Below, piece after piece: positions 6,255-47,644 of a DNA stretch of 64,000 nucleotides. The stretch spans positions 20,446 through 84,445 of the forward strand of contig JAAZVY010000002.1 of NCBI GenBank assembly GCA_018623195.1, in the 5' to 3' direction. The position numbers and the translations under genes are program-made. This DNA comes from Flavobacteriaceae bacterium. GTDB lineage: Bacteria; Bacteroidota; Bacteroidia; Flavobacteriales; Flavobacteriaceae. Under the pieces are notes generated by a model. It did not search any database. It saw only the letters and a program-made list of their open reading frames with translations, and was not told the DNA's origin. Numbering within the stretch: the first letter of the stretch is position 1; every line of letters begins with the position of its first letter.

Positions 6255-7568
6255 ATGAAAGGATTTCCTAACCTCCTAAAACAAGCTCTTTTCTCATTAG
6301 TGCTTGTTGTTAGTGCTACTTCTCTCTCTTTTGGGCAAGATGGTGGTGACCCGGCCAAGGGTAAACAATTGTTCAATCAAAATTGTGCTGCTTGTCACGC
6401 GCTAAACCGTAAAATGACAGGTCCTGCTTTAGCAAACGTTGAATCGCGATTGGCTGAAGATGAAGGTCTTGATCGTGATTGGTTGTATGCGTGGATTAAA
6501 AACAGTTCTGGGGTTATTAATTCTGGAGACGATTACGCCAATCGTATTTATAACGAGTACAATAAAGCGGCAATGACTGCTTTCCCCACCTTATCGAATG
6601 AGGATATAGATAATATTTTAGCATACACGGCAGCTCCTCCACCCGCTCCCGTTGTTCCTGCTGCTACCGCTACTGCAGCAGCTGCTTCTTCTGAAGGAAA
6701 TGGTGCAAATAGTGATTTAGTTCTTGCGGTTCTATCCTTTGTTTTACTTGTTCTAGTAGCAATGCTTGTTTTAGTTAATCGAACACTACGTCAAATTGCG
6801 GTTGCTAATGGTATTGATGTTGAAAAGGAAAAAGTGCAACGTTTACCGCTATGGAAGGCTTTTGCGCAAAATCAATTTTTAGTATTTGTTTCGGTTGTAA
6901 TTCTCCTTTTAAGTAGTGCCTATTTTGCTTATGCATATATGATGCAGGTAGGTATCGATCAAGGATATGCTCCAGTTCAACCCATCCATTATTCACATAA
7001 GATTCACGCTGGAGATAATAAAATTGAATGTACTTACTGCCACAGTTCTGCTAGAGTTTCTAAGCATTCGGGAATTCCTTCGTTAAACGTTTGTATGAAT
7101 TGTCACAAGTCGATCTATGAGTACACGGGTAATCCTGAAGGTCCTTCTGCTGAAGATCTAGCAAATGGTTACACGAATGAATTCTATACTGGTGAAATTA
7201 AGAAGCTGTACAAGGCCGTAGGTTGGGACGAAGAAAATCAACGTTACACCGGAGAGAGCTATCCTGTAGAATGGGTTCGTATTCACAATCTCCCAGACTT
7301 TGTTTACTTCAACCACTCTCAGCACTACAGTGTTGCTGGTGTTGAATGTCAAACTTGTCACGGTCCAGTTGAAGAAATGGAAGTAATGTATCAATATGCA
7401 CCGCTGACTATGGGATGGTGTATCAATTGTCACCGTGAAACTAACGTTCAACTTACTTCGAATCCTTATTACGAAAAGATTCACGAAGAATTGTCTAAAA
7501 AATATGGGGTCGATGAGCTAACTGCAGCTCAAATGGGTGGCCTTGAATGTGGTAAGTGCCACTATTAA
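6255..7568 (+). CDS. actA: Alternative Complex III subunit ActA, multiheme cytochrome c with N-terminal monoheme domain
   Basis: CAACH near the N-terminus, a central TM helix, then CTYCH, CMNCH, CQTCH, CINCH, CGKCH. Confidence 0.92.
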   Translation: MKGFPNLLKQALFSLVLVVSATSLSFGQDGGDPAKGKQLFNQNCAACHALNRKMTGPALANVESRLAEDEGLDRDWLYAWIKNSSGVINSGDDYANRIYNEYNKAAMTAFPTLSNEDIDNILAYTAAPPPAPVVPAATATAAAASSEGNGANSDLVLAVLSFVLLVLVAMLVLVNRTLRQIAVANGIDVEKEKVQRLPLWKAFAQNQFLVFVSVVILLLSSAYFAYAYMMQVGIDQGYAPVQPIHYSHKIHAGDNKIECTYCHSSARVSKHSGIPSLNVCMNCHKSIYEYTGNPEGPSAEDLANGYTNEFYTGEIKKLYKAVGWDEENQRYTGESYPVEWVRIHNLPDFVYFNHSQHYSVAGVECQTCHGPVEEMEVMYQYAPLTMGWCINCHRETNVQLTSNPYYEKIHEELSKKYGVDELTAAQMGGLECGKCHY

Positions 7569-7587: not shown

Positions 7588-10500
7588 ATGGCATCACATA
7601 AACAATATTGGAAAAGTGAAGCGGAGCTTACAAACGACCCGGTGGTTGAACAATTAGCTCAAAACGAATTCACCGAAACCTTACCTGTAAATGATTTCTT
7701 TGAACAAGAATCATCATTAAAAGATTCTCAATCGTCACGTAGAGATTTTCTTAAGTTCTTAGGTTTTAGTACTGCAGCTGCAACACTTGCGGCGTGCGAA
7801 GGGCCTGTTAAGAAATCCATTCCTTACGTGATTCAACCAGACGAAATCGTTCCAGGAGTTGCGAATTATTACGCAACAACGATAGCAGATGGTTATGACT
7901 TTGCAAGTGTCTTGGTAAAGACTCGCGAAGGTCGTCCTATTAAGATTGAGAATAATGATCGTGCCACTCTTTTCGGAGGGGCTAATGCTCGTGTTCAAGC
8001 CTCTGTACTAAACCTTTACGATAAGAATAGATTACAAGGCCCTGAGGCTTCTGGATCTGTAATTTCTTGGAGTGATTTGGATGCAGCTGTCATTGCGAGA
8101 TTAGAAAGTGCTAAGAACTCTGGAAAAAAAGTTTTTGTTCTTTCTGGTACTAAGGCTAGTCCTTCATACTCAAAAGCTATTGAAGCTTTAAAAGCTAAGT
8201 ATCCGAATGTTGAGTACCATACCTATGATGCTATTTCATCCGCTTCTGCTCTAGATGCTTTTGAAGAGGCCTATGGCGAAAGAGCCCTGGCTGACTATAA
8301 CCTTTCTTCTGCGGATATCATCGTATCGTTCGATGCTGATTTCTTGGGTGATTGGCAAGGTGGTGGTTATTCTAAAGGATATGCAAAAAATCGCGTACCG
8401 CATCACGGACACATGTCGCATCATGTACAACTAGAGTCGAACATGACTTTAAGTGGGGCTAACGCTGATAAACGTATACCTCTCACAACGGTAGAGCAAA
8501 AGAGAGCACTTGCTGCATTATATAATGCGCTTAAAGGAGTTTCAGCGTCAGAATCAACTACATCGATTTCTGGTCATGTTAACGCAATGGCTCAAAAGCT
8601 TAAAACTGCAGGTTCTAAAGCGGTTGTTCTTTGCGGTATTGATGATAAGGACGCACAACTGATCACGCTAGCTATTAATGAATTGCTGAAAAGTGATGCT
8701 TTTGATGTTGCCGAGCCAAAATACGTTCGTTCAGCTTCGGCTTCGGTTCTTGAAGATATAATTGCTGCCGCTAATAAAAATGAAGTTGCAGCTATCTTAA
8801 TCGATGGGGTTAACCCACTATACAGTGCTCCTAATGCAGAAGCTTTTTCTTCTGCCTTGTCGCAAATCGGTTTTTCTGTAACCTCTTCTTTCTCATTAAC
8901 TGAAACTGCAGCGGCCTCTACTTTTGTTGCATCTGCTTCTCATTTCCTTGAATCATGGGGTGATGTTGAGATTAAGAAAGGTCATTATGGAATTACTCAG
9001 CCGGTGATTCGAAATCTTTTTGACACTCGTCAATTTGAACAATCATTGCTAGTTTGGGCAGGAGTTTCTGAAACCTACCATGATTTCATTCAAAAGAATT
9101 GGAGAAGTACTGTTTTAAAAGGTAGTTCATGGAGTCAAGCGGTTCAAGATGGAGTTTTCTACAGCTCTTCTAAAGGATCTCGTAACTTCGGAATTAGCGA
9201 AGGTGATTTACAATTGTCTTCGAATAAACTTTCTAATTCATCATCAAATGGTGTTGAATTAGTTCTTTATGCAAAAACCGGAATGGGTGACGGTCAAATG
9301 GCAAACAATCCTTGGTTGCAAGAATTCCCAGATCCTATTTCAAGAGCATCATGGGATAATTACCTGACGATCTCTAAGGCTGATGCATTAGCCTACGGTT
9401 TTGAAAATATAAATGTTGCTAACGGTGGTCTTGATGGTAGTTATGCTACGCTAAAGGTTGGTGATGTAACTTTAAATAGAGTTCCTGTTCTTATTCAACC
9501 AGGTCAAGCTAAAGGCACGGTTGGTTTAGCACTAGGTTACGGCCGTAAATCGGGTATTCAAGAAGAAATGCAAACCGGAGTGAATGCTTACTCACTGTAC
9601 CTTGGTCAATCTAAAGTACAATCGGTTACCATAGAAAAGGAACGCGGAATGCACGAATTTGCATGCGTACAGCTGCATAAAACTCTAATGGGCCGTGGTG
9701 ATATCATCAAAGAAACTACCCTAGAGGATTTTATTAGCAAGCCTTCAGAAGAATGGAATCCAACTCCAATGGTGTCTTTAGATCACCAAGAAGTTCCAGC
9801 TACCTCTGTAGACCTTTGGGAATCATTCGATCGTACCGTAGGTCATCATTTTAATCTGTCGATTGATCTAAATGCATGTACAGGATGTGGTGCTTGTGTT
9901 ATTGCATGTCACGCCGAAAATAATGTACCCGTTGTTGGTAAACATGAAATTAGAGTATCAAGAGATATGCACTGGTTGCGTATTGATAGATATTATTCTT
10001 CAGAGGAAACTTTTGCTCAGGATACTGAGAAGAAAGAGAATCTAGATGGTTTATTCGGTGATAACGGTAGTCTAAGTGGATTTGGGTCTATGGAAGATCC
10101 TTCAGAAAATCCTCAAGTAGCCTTCCAGCCAGTAATGTGTCAGCACTGTAATCATGCCCCTTGTGAGACCGTATGTCCTGTTGCTGCTACTTCGCACTCG
10201 CGTCAAGGTCAAAACCATATGGCATACAACCGTTGTATTGGTACAAGATATTGTGCGAATAACTGTCCTTATAAAGTTCGCCGCTTTAACTGGTTCTTAT
10301 ACAACCAAAATGATGAATTTGATTTCCACATGAACAATGACCTTGGTCGTATGGTTCTAAACCCAGATGTGAATGTTCGTTCTAGAGGGGTGATGGAAAA
10401 ATGCTCAATGTGTATCCAACGTACCCAGAAAACTATTCTGGATGCTAAAGCTGAAGGACGCTCAATTAAGGATGGTGAATTCCAGACGGCTTGTTCTGCG

Positions 10501-37892: not shown

Positions 37893-38162
37893 ATGAATAG
37901 TATTAAAAATCTACACCGATTAAAGAGATTACACCAACTCATTCGATCTGAATGCACGGGTACTCCCTATGAACTTTCTAGACGTCTTCATATCAGCGAG
38001 CGTTTGGTTTATCTTTTGGTAGAACAGCTTAGAGACTTTGACGCACTCATTGAATACGATCGATCAAGACAGACCTATTATTACCGCGAATTGTTTGATT
38101 TAGAAGTGGATATTTCAGTTCGGGTTTACAATAAAGATCAGATGATTGAATTATATCGTTGA
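37893..38162 (+). CDS. Small helix-turn-helix-like protein, candidate cassette regulator
   Basis: MNSIKNLHRLKRLHQLIRSECTGTPYELSRRLHISERLVYLLVEQLRDFDALIEYDRSRQTYYYRE; helix-turn-helix pattern by eye. Confidence 0.6.
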   Translation: MNSIKNLHRLKRLHQLIRSECTGTPYELSRRLHISERLVYLLVEQLRDFDALIEYDRSRQTYYYRELFDLEVDISVRVYNKDQMIELYR

Positions 38163-38217: not shown

Positions 38218-38367
38218 ATGATTATGTACAACACTAAGTTTAAAAAAAGTAAGCACATTAAACCGTTAGAACCTCGATTTGAAATGGGTTGGTTCAAAAG
38301 CGGTGAAATTAGTACGAGTATTCAATCAGATGGGGATTTCACCGTCACCGGTAAGATTCGTTTTTAA
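38218..38367 (+). CDS. Unlisted 49-aa small ORF, candidate short peptide
   Basis: MIMYNTKFKKSKHIKPLEPRFEMGWFKSGEISTSIQSDGDFTVTGKIRF; fills the gap between the HTH gene and the next CDS, stop one nt before ATG 38369. Confidence 0.5.
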   Translation: MIMYNTKFKKSKHIKPLEPRFEMGWFKSGEISTSIQSDGDFTVTGKIRF

Positions 38368-38368
38368 T

Positions 38369-39190
38369 ATGTTCGGCGCCTACCAAGCCCTCTTTCGAAG
38401 GGGGCTTATTTATATTTTATACTTAGCTAGTTTCTTTATGCTGTATGGTCAATATTCAAATTCTATTGAGTTAGAAGAGGTCGAATTGTCGCCTGATAAT
38501 CTTGTGTTCATGTTGAAATCAATACAAGAATTGCCTCAATCTGAAAGCGTTTCAAAATTTAGTCACGTGGACTATCGCGAAATATTATCTGCTGGTAGTC
38601 ATTCGGTTATCACCACTGATAGAAAACTTATTTATCAATTAAATGTAGAACATCCCCTGAACTATTCGGATGCTTTTGAATCGAACTGGTGGTTAACCGA
38701 TGAAAAGTGTTCTTACTCTGGAAGATACAAAGGACCGTTTCCTGATTTATCTTTTGCCGCACGCACTTTTCAATTGAGCTATTTCATAAAATTATTGGAG
38801 GATTACTTTGATCGTTTAATTGTATCTAGGGAACCTGATAAACTGGGCTTGAGTTATCACTTTAGAGCTGATTCTAATATCTCTCAAATGAATATTTCAG
38901 GCTCTTTATTGTTTAATCATGAGAATCAATTATTAGAAATTCAGTTGTTTTTGCGATTGAAGCCTGGAAATTCAAATCTGTCCATTGAGAGTTTGCATAT
39001 AGTGAATACGTATCCTTTTAATGAGAAGTTAAGTCGTCAACAAGCGATGACTACCTATATTGATGCAAGTAATAAGAGAATTACTCAGTTCCAAGATTTT
39101 AGATTTTCTGAGGTCTTGGTCGAAGCTGACCAACTTCAATTGCCAGTGGATCATAAAAAGGCTCTAAAGCCCTCTTGTTATGAGCCCTGA
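38369..39190 (+). CDS. Secreted or membrane-anchored protein of unknown family
   Basis: 273 aa; N-terminal hydrophobic segment GLIYILYLASFFMLYG. ATG 38369 preferred over TTG 38279. Confidence 0.65.
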   Translation: MFGAYQALFRRGLIYILYLASFFMLYGQYSNSIELEEVELSPDNLVFMLKSIQELPQSESVSKFSHVDYREILSAGSHSVITTDRKLIYQLNVEHPLNYSDAFESNWWLTDEKCSYSGRYKGPFPDLSFAARTFQLSYFIKLLEDYFDRLIVSREPDKLGLSYHFRADSNISQMNISGSLLFNHENQLLEIQLFLRLKPGNSNLSIESLHIVNTYPFNEKLSRQQAMTTYIDASNKRITQFQDFRFSEVLVEADQLQLPVDHKKALKPSCYEP

Positions 39191-39923
39191 ATTGGTATAT
39201 GTACTTTCTCATGATAGTTCTAGTCCTTTCTATAAATCTTATGCTAGTTTGTTCAAAGGCTTTCTGTTGGATAGTATTGATAATCAAGTAATTGAAGATC
39301 TTGACATTATCGGTCATTTATTGTTTCAAATGATGATGCATATTGATCGCATCGAAGATGATCAAGCGAAAGGTATGGATATGGTTATTGCACTTCAAAC
39401 AGAAGCTGCCAAGAGACTTTCGTATTATTTTCCCATTAACCATTCCTTTTGGATGCAATACGATCGAATTGCCAAAGAGTTTGCTCAACGCAAAAGACTT
39501 GATAGATTATGTCATCAGAGAAGTAGTTGGGTTAATTATGAGACTCTCGCATTATCTCGATCAATTTATGCCGAACTAGGTTTAATAGCTCTCTTAGAAT
39601 TAGGTCTACTTCAAAATCAACGATTTAATACGCTTATTAAGAGTCATAGACAATTTGTTATTGCCTTTCAGCTTTATGATGATTGTGCTGATTTCTATGA
39701 AGATCAGAGTAAGGAACAATTCAATTGGGCAATTCACAAGGCTTCTGCAAAGGGTATTCCTCTTGATCAATTCTATCGATCTACGCTTTTTAGTGCACTA
39801 ATTGATACTGTCGTTGGTCACTTGAATAATGCTGCTGAGTTGATTGAGGAATTGCCAAGAAGTGAGTATGGCTTGCTTATAAAGAAGATAAGAGACTCGG
39901 TGGATTCCCTTTACCAAGTATAA
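39180..39923 (+). CDS. Class I isoprenoid-synthase-like all-helical protein
   Basis: Two Asp-rich motifs: MMMHIDRIEDDQAKG and FVIAFQLYDDCADFYEDQSKEQFNWAI; overlaps the preceding CDS by 11 nt. Confidence 0.55.
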   Translation: MSPELVYVLSHDSSSPFYKSYASLFKGFLLDSIDNQVIEDLDIIGHLLFQMMMHIDRIEDDQAKGMDMVIALQTEAAKRLSYYFPINHSFWMQYDRIAKEFAQRKRLDRLCHQRSSWVNYETLALSRSIYAELGLIALLELGLLQNQRFNTLIKSHRQFVIAFQLYDDCADFYEDQSKEQFNWAIHKASAKGIPLDQFYRSTLFSALIDTVVGHLNNAAELIEELPRSEYGLLIKKIRDSVDSLYQV

Positions 39924-41018
39924 ATGAATTCAAAATTATTTCATTGCCCTTTGCACTTTGAGCTTATTTCAGGTCAAACCTATTTACTTAATGATAAGAT
40001 TCAATTAGTGAGTTACGAGTTAAGTAAAGAGTTATTTGATCTGTTAACTTACTGTCGTCTCCCCAGAACCAAAGCAGAACTGATCGACGAATTATCAAAG
40101 AAATTGATCTCATCCGAGGAATGCCAAGAATTAATCTTAGAGTTAGATCTACTTACAGGTAAAGAACAAAGGATTCGTTCTAAGGTACTTCGTCGAATAA
40201 ACCATGCTGGTTTACGCGGGATAGATTTAAGGATTAATCGGTGTCAATTTTCTTGGCTCAATACCTTGAAATTATTTTCAATCGAGGTTATGGTAGGTCT
40301 CTGTCTACTTGCTATGCTATCTCTGATGGCTGTTGGAATAGTGTTGGGAAAAAGTGTCCTTGATACTCCACTGCCATTTTGGGGATTGTTATTAGTTCTG
40401 CTTAGTACTCCTATTCATGAATTAGGGCACGCTATGGCCTATAAAAGTCTGGGAGGAAGCGCTTTTAGTATAGGAGCGGGTTTCTATTTTTTTATTCCGG
40501 TTTTATTCGTTGATGTTTCATTAAGCAATTCACTTTCTAGAGCTAGCCGTTTGAAAATTAGTCTAGCAGGTGTCTATTTCGAATTGATTTGGATTTTGTT
40601 TTTACTTGGTTTTGGGTTGGCTTTTCAAATTGATTGGATGTATACAGCGATCCTTTTGATCGGTATTCAAGCCTTGTGGAATTTGAACCCATTTTTTCGA
40701 TCAGATGGTTATTGGATTCTCTCTGACTTAACAAATACTCGATGGCTTTCACGAAGCAGTGCTGAAGAATTAAGGATGTTTATTAAGGCTAATAGACCTT
40801 TAAACGGGTTAGTTTTTTATGCGATTACAAGAAGTTTTTTTGTCGCTTATTGTTTTATTCATCTCATTTATCAATTCTTTTTTGCCGAAAAACGATTGGT
40901 TGAGGTCTTGATTGATTTTATTCGATCTCCTTCGATTGATCATTTTTCAGTGACACTTATACTGCCTTTTCTGTTTGTAATATCCCTTTTTCGTTATGCT
41001 GCAAAGAGATTGCAATGA
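39924..41018 (+). CDS. Membrane M50-type zinc metallopeptidase with PqqD-like N-terminal region (peptide maturation/export type)
   Basis: HELGH at 40416-40430; NLNPFFRSDGYWILSDLTNTRWL as in RiPP-associated M50 proteins; N-terminal 70 aa resembles a PqqD-like winged helix. Confidence 0.75.
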   Translation: MNSKLFHCPLHFELISGQTYLLNDKIQLVSYELSKELFDLLTYCRLPRTKAELIDELSKKLISSEECQELILELDLLTGKEQRIRSKVLRRINHAGLRGIDLRINRCQFSWLNTLKLFSIEVMVGLCLLAMLSLMAVGIVLGKSVLDTPLPFWGLLLVLLSTPIHELGHAMAYKSLGGSAFSIGAGFYFFIPVLFVDVSLSNSLSRASRLKISLAGVYFELIWILFLLGFGLAFQIDWMYTAILLIGIQALWNLNPFFRSDGYWILSDLTNTRWLSRSSAEELRMFIKANRPLNGLVFYAITRSFFVAYCFIHLIYQFFFAEKRLVEVLIDFIRSPSIDHFSVTLILPFLFVISLFRYAAKRLQ

Positions 41019-41055: not shown

Positions 41056-41199
41056 ATGAAAAGAGCTTTATCAATACCTGAAATGAAAAAAGTGAGAGGT
41101 GGTTTCTTACCCTTTGTAGTCATCCTAGTTATCGATGCTACACTACTCGGTTTTATGAGTGGATATATTTATGAATCTTTTACCAGTGATCACCAATGA
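41056..41199 (+). CDS. Double-glycine-leader precursor peptide (bacteriocin/signalling-type)
   Basis: MKRALSIPEMKKVRGG|FLPFVVILVIDATLLGFMSGYIYESFTSDHQ; GG leader pattern LSxxEMKKVRGG; ATG 41056 preferred over 40996, which overlaps the M50 gene. Confidence 0.75.
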   Translation: MKRALSIPEMKKVRGGFLPFVVILVIDATLLGFMSGYIYESFTSDHQ

Positions 41200-41218
41200 T
41201 TTTCTCTGCATTAACCAA

Positions 41219-41251
41219 AAAATCTCTTGAGGTGGGTCTTTTCGAGATTTT
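41219..41251 (+). terminator. Hairpin between precursor peptide and C39 peptidase, possible partial terminator
   Basis: AAAATCTC-N17-GAGATTTT. Confidence 0.4.
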
Positions 41252-41301
41252 CGTTCAAAGCTTTAAAAGAGGACAAGATTTTTATCATAGAAACTGTAAT
41301 C

Positions 41302-41388
41302 ATGAATAAAGAATGGCAATATGGGTTAGGTTTTGTAGCAATACTTGCCCTGTTTATAATCATTGGAAGATGGGTAGCTACCCATTAA
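41302..41388 (+). CDS. Unlisted 28-aa single-TM small ORF
   Basis: MNKEWQYGLGFVAILALFIIIGRWVATH; overlaps the C39 start. Confidence 0.4.
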   Translation: MNKEWQYGLGFVAILALFIIIGRWVATH

Positions 41389-41774
41389 TCTCGGTTAAAC
41401 AACGATCTTTTTTCGATTGTGGAATAGCTTGCTTAAAAAGCCTATTTCTATACCATGGTTGTTTTTTCAGCCTTCCGAGACGACAAAAACGCTTTCGGGG
41501 GTATAGTCTTTATGAGCTTTTTAAGTTAGCTGACCAGCAAGGGATGCAAGCGTTTGTTTATCGATCCTCATCATTTGACGTAGACTGTATTCCTTGTCTG
41601 GTTCAATTAAGCTACATGGGGGTCGGACACTACGTTGTTGTATATGGTTACACTGCGAATAAAATACAGATCATGGACCCATCGGTGGGTCGTATTTATT
41701 GGTTGCCTGAAACGAAATTTCAGCGATTGTGGTCGGGATTTTTCTTAGTTCTATCAGAGAAAAAACCTCTGTAA
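41370..41774 (+). CDS. Stand-alone C39 family leader peptidase
   Basis: VKQRSFFDCGIACLKSLFLYHG (Cys nucleophile 41418-41420) and GVGHYVVVYGYTANKIQIMDPSVG (His/Asp); 134 aa, no fused ABC domain. Confidence 0.82.
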   Translation: MGSYPLISVKQRSFFDCGIACLKSLFLYHGCFFSLPRRQKRFRGYSLYELFKLADQQGMQAFVYRSSSFDVDCIPCLVQLSYMGVGHYVVVYGYTANKIQIMDPSVGRIYWLPETKFQRLWSGFFLVLSEKKPL

Positions 41775-41874: not shown

Positions 41875-42576
41875 ATGATAGAAATTAAAGACTTGCATAA
41901 GTCATATCAAATGGGCAGTAATTCACTGCATGTCTTAAAAGGAATCAACTTTTCTGTAGAACAAGGTGAATTAGTGGCAATTATGGGTTCTTCGGGTTCT
42001 GGTAAATCGACTTTACTGAACATCTTAGGAATGTTAGATGAAGCTGATTCAGGTTCTTATACCTTAGATTCTGTACCTATTGTAGACCTTAATGAGACCA
42101 AGGCAGCTGAATATCGAAATAAGTTTCTTGGATTTATTTTTCAGTCTTTTAACTTGATCAACTACAAATCAGCCGTTGAAAATGTTGCTCTTCCATTGTA
42201 TTATCAAGGTAAATCTAGAAAGGAGCGAAATGCTACAGCACTAGAATATCTTGATCGAGTCGGTCTAAAACCCTGGGCAGACCATTTGCCCAGTGAGCTA
42301 TCAGGAGGTCAAAAGCAGCGTGTAGCTATTGCCCGTGCAATGGCTGCAGACCCTAAAGTTCTCTTAGCTGATGAGCCCACCGGAGCTTTAGATAGCAAAA
42401 CTTCTTATGAGGTGATGGACCTCATTCAGAAAATTAATGATGAGGGTAATACCATACTCGTGGTAACTCATGAGGAGGATATCGCTCATATGTGCAAACG
42501 AATCGTCTACTTGAAAGACGGCGTGATTGTTGAAGATAAAAAAGTAGACCAAGTACGCGCCTCTCAATATGTTTAG
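41875..42576 (+). CDS. MacB/LolD-type ABC transporter ATP-binding protein
   Basis: Walker [10 protein letters not shown], signature [16 protein letters not shown], Walker [13 protein letters not shown]. Confidence 0.96.
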
Positions 42577-43798
42577 TAGAGATACCTGGAAAGAGATTTT
42601 CGATACCATTCGAAAGAATAAGCTTAGAACCTTTTTGACAGGGTTCACAATGGCCTTAGGGATTTTTATTGTAGTCATCCTGGTAGGGTTTACCAATGGT
42701 TTGCAGAATACCTTTGAAAAATTCTTTGGGGATGATGCCACCAACACCCTGTTTGTATTTCCAGGAAGAACATCGATGCCCTACAAGGGATACACTTCAA
42801 ATCGAAGAATTCAATTCGATAATTCAGACTTAAAAGATATCGAGGAAAATTTTGCAATGTTTCTCGATTATATTACTCCACGTATTACTCGTTCTAGTCT
42901 TGTAAGATATAAGGGAGAATCTAATAACTATACGAATAGAGCAGTGGCTCCAGCCCATCAATTCAGTGAGAAAACGATTATTATGAAAGGTCGTTTTTTA
43001 AATGAAAATGACATAAATATCAGAGCGAAGTATGCAGTGATTGGGCGTTTAGTTGCCAAGGATTTATTTAAAGAGGAAGATCCTATTGGGAAATACATCA
43101 CTTTGGGCGACAGTGCATTTAAAGTTATTGGTGTGTTTCAAGACGATGGAGGGGACAATGAAGAGCGCTTCATTTATATCCCTTATACTACGAGACAACT
43201 TATCGAAAAAGGGAATGATAAGATTGAACAGATCATCCTTGGGTTTAACCCTAGTATAGGCTATGCTGGTGCTATGGCTCTTGAGAAAAATGTAACTAAA
43301 CTTCTAAAGGAGAAGAAATTCATTGCAAGAGAAGATCGCAGCGGAATATTCATTCGAAATATTGCAGATGAACTCAAGCAGAATCAACAATTTGCTCAGG
43401 TATTAGGATTTATAGCATTGTTTTTTGCCATTGGTACTATTGTTGCAGGTATCATTGGTGTAAGTAATATCATGATTTTTGTGGTAAAGGAGCGCACTAA
43501 AGAAATCGGAATTCGAAAAGCTTTAGGAGCGACACCTAGAGTCGTGATTAGTACCATTTTATTAGAGGCTACCACGATAACGATTTTATCTGGCTTCTCT
43601 GGAATGCTTGCTGGAGTGGTTATTCTTCAGAATCTGGGAGGCAAGCTTGAAGATTATTTTATCACTAATCCTTACATCGATTTGGGTTTCGCAATTGGAG
43701 CAACCGTAATCTTAATCATTTTCGGAAGTATCGCTGGGTATATTCCCGCGAAGCGTGCTGCTCGAATTAAACCCATTGTAGCACTTAGAGACGAATAA
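42569..43798 (+). CDS. MacB-type ABC transporter permease (MacB_PCD + FtsX), paralog 1
   Basis: Four-TM FtsX architecture; [17 protein letters not shown] motif. Confidence 0.94.
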
Positions 43799-43799
43799 T

Positions 43800-45062
43800 A
43801 TGCGATTTTTATTTAAAAGCGATACATGGCAAGAAATATTCAGCTCGATTAGCAAGAATCGAGTAAGAACACTCTTAACCGTTATTGGGGTGCTTTGGGG
43901 AATCTTCGTCTATATTGCAATGTCTGGTGCTGCCAAAGGTTTAGATAATGGTTTTGAAAGACAATTTGAGACGGTTGCAATGAATTCGCTGTTTGCTTGG
44001 TCCCAGTCTACGAGCAAACCTTATAAAGGTTTTCGAACTGGTCGAAGAATTCAACTTCGATTAGGAGATATTGATGTTTTAAAGAAAAGAATTCCAGAAA
44101 TTCAGTACATCGCGCCACGAAATGCTACCGGTGTTTTTGGTGGAAGTCCTGCCTTGACGGTTAGAGGTCAGAAATCGGGTAGTTATAACGTGTACGGAGA
44201 CTTCCCGGTATACACTAAGATTGCAACAAAGAAAATTTACGATGGCGGAAGGTTCATCAATGAAATGGATATTGAAGAGTCTCGCAGAGTTTGTGTTATT
44301 GGAGAAAGAACTAAAACCGAACTTTTTGAAGATGAAGAGGAGGCAATAGGATCCTTTATTCGAATTAACGACATCTATTTTAGAGTGGTCGGTGTGCACA
44401 AGTTTGTTCCTGGTGGAGGTTTTGAATCAGATAGCGATATTTTTATCCCTTTTACCACCTTCAATAAACTCTACAATAAAGGGGATGACGTAGACTTTAT
44501 GAGCATCGCAGCCTTTGACGATGCAGATATCGTGAAAGTCGAAGAGGATGTTAAGACGGTATTAAAGTCGATTCACAACGTTGACCCAACCGATGATCGC
44601 GCTTTTGGTTCATTTAATCTTGGGGAGATTTTTGGTCAAATTCGCGGATTTGCGAACGGTTTAACCTTTTTATCTCTAATTATTGGAGCTGCAACTATTC
44701 TTGCCGGTGTTATCGGAATTGGTAATATCCTGCTGATCTCGGTTAAAGAGCGAACGAAAGAACTTGGAGTTAGAAGAGCACTTGGAGCCACTCCGGCTGA
44801 GGTGAGAAATTTGATTTTACTGGAGTCCGTTTTCTTGACCCTCGTATCCGGCTTACTAGGCATCATTTTAGGTGCTGCAACGCTGAACTTAGTTAATAAT
44901 TTAACCGAAGGGAGTGATTTCCCTTATACGAATCCGACAGTTCCAATACCCTATGTGGTTGGAGCACTTGCTTTAATGGTCATTCTTGGTACACTTATTG
45001 GACTAATTCCTGCGCAGAGAGCGGTAAGTATAAAACCAATTGATGCGCTAAGAGAAGAATAA
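43800..45062 (+). CDS. MacB-type ABC transporter permease (MacB_PCD + FtsX), paralog 2
   Basis: ERTKELGVRRALGATPAEV motif; parallel to paralog 1. Confidence 0.94.
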   Translation: MRFLFKSDTWQEIFSSISKNRVRTLLTVIGVLWGIFVYIAMSGAAKGLDNGFERQFETVAMNSLFAWSQSTSKPYKGFRTGRRIQLRLGDIDVLKKRIPEIQYIAPRNATGVFGGSPALTVRGQKSGSYNVYGDFPVYTKIATKKIYDGGRFINEMDIEESRRVCVIGERTKTELFEDEEEAIGSFIRINDIYFRVVGVHKFVPGGGFESDSDIFIPFTTFNKLYNKGDDVDFMSIAAFDDADIVKVEEDVKTVLKSIHNVDPTDDRAFGSFNLGEIFGQIRGFANGLTFLSLIIGAATILAGVIGIGNILLISVKERTKELGVRRALGATPAEVRNLILLESVFLTLVSGLLGIILGAATLNLVNNLTEGSDFPYTNPTVPIPYVVGALALMVILGTLIGLIPAQRAVSIKPIDALREE

Positions 45063-45100
45063 TTTAATCAATACTATTACTATATAATTAAATACCTATC

Positions 45101-46234
45101 ATGAAAAACGTAGTTAAATGGAGTGTAATTGCTGTGCTTACCTTAGGTGGTCTTTGGGCAGCCGCATTCTTTGTAAAATCGAATAGCAAGGGTGCAATTA
45201 CTTATGAGTCTTTCCAGCCTTTTTACGGTGATATCGAACAAAAGACCGTAGCGACTGGTACCGTAGTTCCTGAGGATGAAGTTGAGATCAAGCCTCAGAT
45301 TCAAGGAATTATCGATGAGCTCGTCAAAAAAGAAGGAGACTTTGTTCAGGTTGGTGATTTAATTGCTGTGATCAAGGTGGTTCCAAATGAGCAATCTCTT
45401 TTTGCTGCTCAAGGACGTGTAAAAAATGCAGAATTACGATTGAACAATGCTAAGCTTGAGTTTGAAAGAAACGAGGCTCTTTTTGAGCGCGGTGTTATTT
45501 CGAATCAAGATTACAATAATCTGAAACTAGCTTTTGATCAAGCAACCCAAGATTTAAAAAATGCAGAGGCCGATTACCAGATTATTAAAGAAGGTTCTGT
45601 AGGAGGCTCTTCTTCTGCAAATACCAATATTAGAGCGACTACTACTGGTACTATTCTTGAAATTCCAGTTGAAAAGGGGGATCAGGTTATTCAATCGAAC
45701 TCGTTTAACGCTGGTACTACGATTGCCACTGTAGCTGACTTAACCAAAATGGTTTTTGAAGGTAAAGTGGATGAAGGAGAGGTAGGTAAGCTTAAAGTTG
45801 GTATGCCTTTAAAGGTCAGTCTTGGTGCCATTGTTGATAAAGAATTCGATGCTAGACTTCGATTTATTGCTCCAAAAGGACAAGAGGAGTCTGGTGCGGT
45901 TAAATTTAAGATTGAAGGAGATGTAGTCATTGAAGATGATTTTACCGTTAGAGCGGGATACAGTGCAAACGCATCTTTAATCTTAGAAAGAAAGGAGAAT
46001 ATCCTAGTTTTACCTGAAGCACTTTTACAGTTTGATAAGGCAACGGATTTACCTTATGTTGAGGTAGAGGTTGGGGAGCAAAAATTCGAAAGAAGAGATA
46101 TTACCATCGGAATTTCGGATGGAATTAACGTAGAGATCCTTGACGGATTAACTGCAGATGATAAGGTAAAACAGTGGAACAAGACTGAGCCAATAAAGAT
46201 TGAGAAGGAAGATGCTCCAGAACGTGGAGTGTAA
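45101..46234 (+). CDS. Periplasmic adaptor (membrane fusion) protein, MacA/HlyD-like
   Basis: N-terminal TM, barrel-sandwich and coiled-coil hairpin (QGRVKNAELRLNNAKLEFERNEALFERGVISNQDYNNL). Confidence 0.94.
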   Translation: MKNVVKWSVIAVLTLGGLWAAAFFVKSNSKGAITYESFQPFYGDIEQKTVATGTVVPEDEVEIKPQIQGIIDELVKKEGDFVQVGDLIAVIKVVPNEQSLFAAQGRVKNAELRLNNAKLEFERNEALFERGVISNQDYNNLKLAFDQATQDLKNAEADYQIIKEGSVGGSSSANTNIRATTTGTILEIPVEKGDQVIQSNSFNAGTTIATVADLTKMVFEGKVDEGEVGKLKVGMPLKVSLGAIVDKEFDARLRFIAPKGQEESGAVKFKIEGDVVIEDDFTVRAGYSANASLILERKENILVLPEALLQFDKATDLPYVEVEVGEQKFERRDITIGISDGINVEILDGLTADDKVKQWNKTEPIKIEKEDAPERGV

Positions 46235-46264
46235 CAAGTACTTCTTAATTCTAAACTACAACCT

Positions 46265-47644
46265 ATGAGATCATATTTATTACTTTTTTTAACGGTTTTC
46301 AGTATTGGAGCATCTGCTCAGGTGAAGAAGATGTCTTTGGCTGAATGCGTAGAATATGCCCTAGAAAACAATATTACAGTTGCACAGTTTGAGTTAGACC
46401 TAGAATCGGCTGAACTAGGAAATTTGGATGCCCTAGGTCAATTTCTACCACGATTGAATGGTTCGCTTTCTGTGAACGAGAGTAAAGGTTTAATTCTTGA
46501 CCCACAAACTCAAACGAATGTAGCCGGTAATATTTTATCGGGGAGTATTAGCCTTTCAGCAGGATACACCATTTTTGATGGTCTTCGTAATATTAAAAGA
46601 GCGCAGAGAGCTCAAATCAATACGATTGCTAATCAGTATCGCCTAGCTAATCTTCAAGATGATATTCGTTTAAGAGTAGCTAATGCCTATTTAAGTGTAA
46701 TATCATCGAAGGAGTCGCTCCGCGTTGCTGAAGCTCAATATGCGGTTACTGAGCAGGATCTAAAAAGAACGAAAGAACTAGTAGGTTTAGGAGTAGTGCC
46801 ACAGGGTGATCTTTTAGAGATTGAGGCTACTGCTGCGAATCAAGAACAAGCTATTGTAAATGCTGAGGCTCGTGTTATTCTTTCGAGAATTACGCTAGCA
46901 CAGCTTCTACAAATTACCGACTATGAAAACTTTGATATTGCAGATGAATCGTTTGAGGTTCCGAGTTCAGATATTTTAGATAAGACTCCCCGTCAAATTT
47001 TCAATAAAGCTTTGAGTTTTAGAAATGATATTAAATTATCAGAGGCGAATGTTTCATTGTCTGAACAAGACTTAGCAATTGCCAAAGGCGCTGCACTACC
47101 TACGCTAAACGCCTTCTTAAACTACAACACCTTTGCCAGTGATCGTTTCACGATTCAGGCTAATCCGAATGAAGATCCTAACGACCCTACGGATGATTTC
47201 AATTTAGTAAGGCCCGATTTTGTCGCTCAGTTAGAGGCCAATGATGGAATCTCTTTTGGGATGTCGATGAATATTCCGATTTTCAACGGATTCTCAACAA
47301 ATAACAGCATTAAACGTGCTGAAATCGGAGTAAGAAGATCAAAGCTCCAATTCGAGCAGGCAAAACTAGATCTTGAAAACGCAGTGAATCAAGCCTATAA
47401 CGATGTGAAGACTTTTGCTAAGGCTTATGAGGCGGCACAAAAGACCCTAGAAGCTAGAAAATTGGCCTACCAATATGCAAAAGAGCGTTTTGATGTCGGT
47501 CTTATGAACTCTTTCAACTTTAGTCAAGCTCAGGCGCGTTTAGATAATGCTGAGGCAAGTGTGATTCGTACTAAGTATGACTATATCTTTCGATTAAAGA
47601 TTTTAGAATTCTACTTCGGCATTCCGATTACTGTACTTCAATAA
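46265..47644 (+). CDS. TolC family outer membrane efflux protein
   Basis: Signal peptide, MSLAECVEYALENNITV, repeated helical TolC pattern. Confidence 0.95.
   Translation: MRSYLLLFLTVFSIGASAQVKKMSLAECVEYALENNITVAQFELDLESAELGNLDALGQFLPRLNGSLSVNESKGLILDPQTQTNVAGNILSGSISLSAGYTIFDGLRNIKRAQRAQINTIANQYRLANLQDDIRLRVANAYLSVISSKESLRVAEAQYAVTEQDLKRTKELVGLGVVPQGDLLEIEATAANQEQAIVNAEARVILSRITLAQLLQITDYENFDIADESFEVPSSDILDKTPRQIFNKALSFRNDIKLSEANVSLSEQDLAIAKGAALPTLNAFLNYNTFASDRFTIQANPNEDPNDPTDDFNLVRPDFVAQLEANDGISFGMSMNIPIFNGFSTNNSIKRAEIGVRRSKLQFEQAKLDLENAVNQAYNDVKTFAKAYEAAQKTLEARKLAYQYAKERFDVGLMNSFNFSQAQARLDNAEASVIRTKYDYIFRLKILEFYFGIPITVLQ

Follow-up and report, generated by a model that had tools for sequence, protein, structure and literature searches.

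A putative reduced two-peptide, double-glycine system beside a candidate peptide prenylation module in a genus of Flavobacteriaceae

The window, the whole stretch of 64,000 nucleotides that was analysed, carries an island that runs from an HTH regulator gene to a C39 peptidase gene (about 37.85–41.78 kb; Table 1). The island encodes a small peptide, alpha, whose translation reads MKRALSIPEMKKVRGG (leader) and FLPFVVILVIDATLLGFMSGYIYESFTSDHQ (core). The leader, LSIPEMKKVRGG, has the LSxxExxxVxGG pattern of double-glycine (GG) precursors, as the first-pass annotation had proposed, and the core is Cys-free and hydrophobic and contains GFMSG. The same annotation had preferred the ATG at 41056 to an upstream extension into the M50 gene, and the congeners agree with this choice. 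In both G009 and G010 the same ATG is directly preceded by an in-frame TAA. The longer frame back to 40996 is thus open by accident, and in this genome only, and a start at 40996 is ruled out. Among open reading frames of 30–100 aa, the strict GG-leader pattern occurred once in the window and not at all in 40 first-order Markov windows, and a looser form of the pattern occurred once against an expected 0.3.

Table 1. Features of the island and its resident neighbours, with positions in the window
Feature	Position	Strand	Evidence or remark
HTH regulator of the island, 89 aa	37893..38162	+	In other Bacteroidota, homologs adjoin GG peptides, HlyD and C39-ABC
P1, a further precursor peptide bearing LEPRFEMGW; candidate substrate for Trp prenylation	38218..38367	+	Conserved in the genus and Aureicoccus
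Fast-evolving protein, probably exported	38369..39190	+	No family match; aligned in the genus
Candidate ChrPC/ComQ-like peptide prenyltransferase, stand-alone P domain	39180..39923	+	Fold, Asp motifs and Gln of FQLYDD
M50 intramembrane protease, RRE-like N-terminus	39924..41018	+	Matches daptide and YydH/LiaK proteases below their cutoffs
Alpha, precursor peptide of 47 aa with GG leader (residues 1-16) and core (17-47)	41056..41199	+	Homologs with the boundary at a constant place; purifying selection
Beta, partner peptide of 37 aa without leader, MIFSALTKKSLEVGLFEIFVQSFKRGQDFYHRNCNHE; overlaps alpha at ATGA	41196..41309	+	Homologous to GG-leader partners in L071, L074, L075 and L076
ORF3, peptide of 28 aa with one TM segment; may serve immunity or as a helper	41302..41388	+	Place and one-TM type kept in relatives, sequence divergent
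Solo C39 peptidase of about 134 aa, left over from a C39-ABC exporter	41370..41774	+	PF03412, 68 bits
MacB-type ATPase, two permeases, HlyD and TolC; resident neighbours	41875..47644	+	Retained by G005 and G007, which have lost the island

Homologs of alpha were found in six of ten congeners (E values from 6e-11 to 3e-27) and, beyond the genus, in Aureicoccus marinus SG-18 and another flavobacterium; several further matches at the level of the class were set aside because they lay inside long frames or without the locus architecture. The dN/dS ratio of close pairs was 0.00–0.27, a range based on few substitutions in a gene of 47 codons. Because homologs occur in congeners, in A. marinus SG-18 and in other flavobacteria, alpha is, as judged from these comparisons, a real gene family under purifying selection. 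Matches of alpha to TIGR02619 (CRISPR-associated) and PF05829 (adenovirus) were at chance level. A search for PADLOC defence families found none, and a promoter scan gave no clear excess over shuffles.

The homologs also bear on the division of the peptide into leader and core. A conserved C-terminal domain lacking such a division would have spoken against a precursor, and the boundary is present in the homologs at a constant position. The double glycine itself is kept in some of them, but G001, G004 and G008 have AG in its place. Asp27 and Gly36 are invariant over eight diverse homologs, and the GxxxG motif that had been pointed out in the membrane-type core is kept in seven of the eight. Comparison of the genus's two branches gives 73–77% identity for the core, against 31–38% for the leader. 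A conserved core behind a varying leader is unusual for a toxin or bacteriocin, and it counts against a bacteriocin-like, two-peptide interpretation.

Class IIb bacteriocins consist of two adjacent peptide genes with export leaders on both peptides. The adjacent genes are present here, as alpha and beta; the second leader is missing, since, wherever beta occurs in the genus, it starts straight at its core. Homologs of beta carry a GG leader in relatives, including Aureicoccus (Table 1). Beta of the genus shows a dN/dS of 0.00–0.12 and has no GxxxG, whereas alpha has a conserved one. ORF3 is the only possible immunity candidate, and no convincing immunity gene was found in the locus. The conserved core, the lack of an evident immunity gene and the HTH gene of the island could also be accommodated if mature alpha and beta were a secreted cell-density signal and not a toxin. 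This explanation appears quite improbable, as no receptor or histidine kinase was noted in the island and the family to which the peptides are related is named for bacteriocins.

The Cys, His and Asp of the C39 peptidase align with those of PCAT1, so that the catalytic triad is intact, but a C39-ABC exporter was found neither in the locus nor in the genome. When the complete exporter of G340 served as query, no match united a C39 domain with ABC parts in the eight genomes covered, seven from the genus and that of Aureicoccus (G000, G001, G002, G004, G008, G009, G010 and G184); two of them are 97–99% complete. Alpha would therefore be exported by another transporter or not at all. Aureicoccus has a C39 domain together with a 279-aa membrane-domain remnant, an apparent intermediate in the reduction of the exporter. 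By these comparisons, a solo C39 protease with an intact triad is all that this genus keeps of the exporter.

The kinship of the peptides was examined by profile comparison. The alignment of alpha from the genus matched GG peptides of other Bacteroidota in hhalign with 97.9% probability, spanning both leader and core. Among the Flavobacteriaceae GG peptides joined to alpha in this way, those of L075 and L076 exceed the curated 21.5-bit cutoff of TIGR03949, the NCBIfam class IIb lactobin/cerein family (22.6 and 22.0 bits), whereas alpha of the window lies below it at 14.6 bits. The loci L074, L075 and L076 contain HlyD, HTH, alpha, beta, single-TM ORF3 and a C39-ABC exporter. The window keeps HTH, alpha, beta and ORF3 in identical order; L074, L075 and L076 retain C39-ABC, HlyD and the beta leader, whereas the window has C39 only and an inserted prenyl module. 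Like the class IIb peptides lactobin A and cerein 7B, alpha has a GG leader, a short hydrophobic core with GxxxG and an adjoining partner gene. Unlike them, it scores below the family cutoff, its partner is leaderless, a C39-ABC exporter and a clear immunity gene are lacking, and the putative system belongs to a Gram-negative organism. The two-peptide proposal of the first-pass annotation is thus right in ancestry, because the next gene encodes a second GG peptide in four relatives, but it does not extend to the present state of the locus, in which the partner has no leader and neither a dedicated exporter nor an evident immunity gene accompanies the pair. Among the papers searched, none dealt directly with flavobacterial class IIb peptides. 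L074 also contains a second, damaged copy of alpha (6619-6828), which continues in frame into a beta-like leader and adjoins a gene for a CPBP (Rce1-like) membrane protease that may serve immunity. Two more GG-leader-like peptides lie at 7915-8272 of the same locus.

The HTH regulator is 69–98% identical within the genus, and in L110, L111 and L112 its family again accompanies GG peptides, HlyD and C39-ABC. The HTH proteins of L071, L074, L075 and L076 finish in a GG-leader-like stretch, e.g. LSNNEVIEVFGG. That of the window (38130-38162) stops just short of the GG, and contact with the C39 domain is possible. The limits of the island are marked by its losses. In G007 the HTH gene ends after MNSIKNLKRLERLH, with the MacB genes following on, and G005 keeps nothing of the island but the C-terminal half of C39. 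The HTH-to-C39 island has, on this evidence, been lost as a unit at least twice in congeners, with different breakpoints. The MacB, HlyD and TolC genes were considered as a part of the island and ruled out; they are resident neighbours, since they stay in G005 and G007 after the island is gone. They could export the peptides, and nothing ties these genes to the island. The deletion in G007, the half gene in G005 and the cutting down of the exporter to C39 would also fit a decaying remnant whose peptides are on their way out. This is very improbable, given that across the genus the genes for alpha, beta, HTH and P1 are all intact and show dN/dS ratios well below 1, and that the C39 triad is preserved.

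It has also to be considered that the pair is domesticated. Alpha and beta would then stay unsecreted and act on the membrane of the cell that makes them, for example as small membrane subunits or to bring about programmed lysis, and C39 would be an internal trigger. Self-acting GG peptides have a precedent in the gonococcal autolysis island (PMC11798529), and the lack of a C39-bearing exporter, the leaderless beta and a core that is conserved and not diversified all agree with such a role. It nevertheless appears rather unlikely, since the GG/AG leader and C39 are retained and the adjoining resident MacB/HlyD/TolC genes could export the peptides.

The genes between HTH and alpha form a separate module. 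P1 of the window, MIMYNTKFKKSKHIKPLEPRFEMGWFKSGEISTSIQSDGDFTVTGKIRF, contains the motif stretch LEPRFEMGWFKSGE with a conserved Trp and is, in general form, an LExRFEMGW tryptophan peptide. A strong hairpin with a T-rich tail lies just after P1, inside the start of the next gene (38385-38407), and could raise the expression of P1 over that of the enzymes. Proteins similar in size to the one encoded by that gene precede the prenyltransferase in other loci. The AlphaFold model of the prenyltransferase candidate has a pLDDT of 91, and Foldseek matches it to the prenyl diphosphate synthase fold. Both Asp-rich motifs are present, with a Gln right before the second (FQLYDD), so that the fold, Asp motifs and Gln of trans-IDS-like Trp prenyltransferases are all found in this protein. 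According to PMC13290415, this Gln is common to Trp prenyltransferases including PalQ and the P domain of ChrPC, and the characterised enzymes of the ChrPC/PalQ type modify Trp. The neighbour module thus resembles ChrPC, ComQ and PalQ (PMC13290415, PMC10853753) in its isoprenoid-synthase fold, in the Gln before the second Asp motif and in a Trp peptide as candidate substrate. Unlike ChrPC, the enzyme of the window has no cyclase domain; the likeness concerns the module and not alpha, and the chemistry is that of a candidate. In Aureicoccus and many other Bacteroidota the homolog is fused to a squalene-hopene-cyclase-like domain, an arrangement that resembles the two-domain architecture of ChrPC.

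Outside the genus, a short LExRxE peptide adjoins the prenyltransferase in 16 of 17 loci. In most of these loci a Trp follows soon after the motif, but not in a more distant clade (L135-L138), where the peptides read LEERKEFTFY or LEERKEFTCY, are often Cys- or Pro-rich and have no Trp directly after; this suggests an acceptor residue other than Trp. A Cys-rich LExRLE peptide, SCYCAINLCGGYCCELCGGQCSFCSYCGG, adjoins prenyltransferase and M50 genes in L085 (627-830). In L080 and L081 the prenyltransferase and M50 pair adjoins a radical SAM/SPASM maturase, which suggests that the peptides there are doubly modified.

The N-terminus of the M50 protease has an RRE-like topology in its model and weak structural matches to RRE domains; beyond the N-terminus the model is too poor to be relied on. 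Daptide and YydH/LiaK systems likewise have an M50 protease, related in sequence, in a peptide locus, but the protease of the window falls under their equivalog cutoffs, and the daptide and epipeptide modification enzymes were not seen here. The gene order and the kinship of M50 with proteases that process hydrophobic peptides would allow alpha itself to be the substrate of the prenyltransferase and M50. This is extremely doubtful. In G340, G274, G411 and G422 alpha and beta are present but these enzymes are not; elsewhere the enzymes accompany LExRxE peptides in the absence of alpha; and the characterised enzymes of this type modify Trp, which alpha does not contain. The two modules are kept apart here because genomes with alpha exist that lack a prenyltransferase-type enzyme. 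P1, not alpha, is most likely the substrate of both enzymes, and M50 probably belongs with P1 and not with the processing of alpha. A hybrid, in which a domesticated GG pair and a Trp-prenylated peptide module share one regulator and bring three peptides together at one membrane, is judged clearly unlikely.

Overall, the explanation that is modestly favoured is that alpha belongs, as one of two peptide subunits, to a class IIb-like double-glycine system of Bacteroidota, in which C39 trims the leader and alpha and beta act in the membrane. It is based on the homologs and the fixed boundary, the profile match, the GG-leader partner in four relatives, the C39 triad and the dN/dS ratios, together with the occurrence of HTH next to GG peptides and exporters elsewhere and the loss of the island as a unit. 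Against it stand the C39-ABC exporter that was not found in the genomes searched, the leaderless beta without GxxxG, the sub-cutoff TIGR03949 score and the lack of a convincing immunity gene. In the proposed sequence of events, the solo C39 would cleave the 16-residue leader of alpha after the GG, releasing a 31-residue core predicted to be a hydrophobic GxxxG helix with an invariant Asp. Beta would be made directly without a leader in this genus, and the alpha core would pair with it within the membrane. Export would proceed through a general transporter, and the pair may disturb an inner membrane, either a competing relative's or its own cell's.

The system is, as far as sequence comparison can tell, a reduced and recombined form of a known two-peptide GG type. 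It extends such systems to a flavobacterial genus with small genomes and illustrates a route of reduction in which the exporter and the leader of the partner are lost while the protease and the cores are kept. The LExRFEMGW peptide and the cyclase-less ChrPC-like enzyme make a compact candidate for Trp prenylation in Bacteroidota, and the reduced pair permits a direct test of peptide function without a dedicated exporter.
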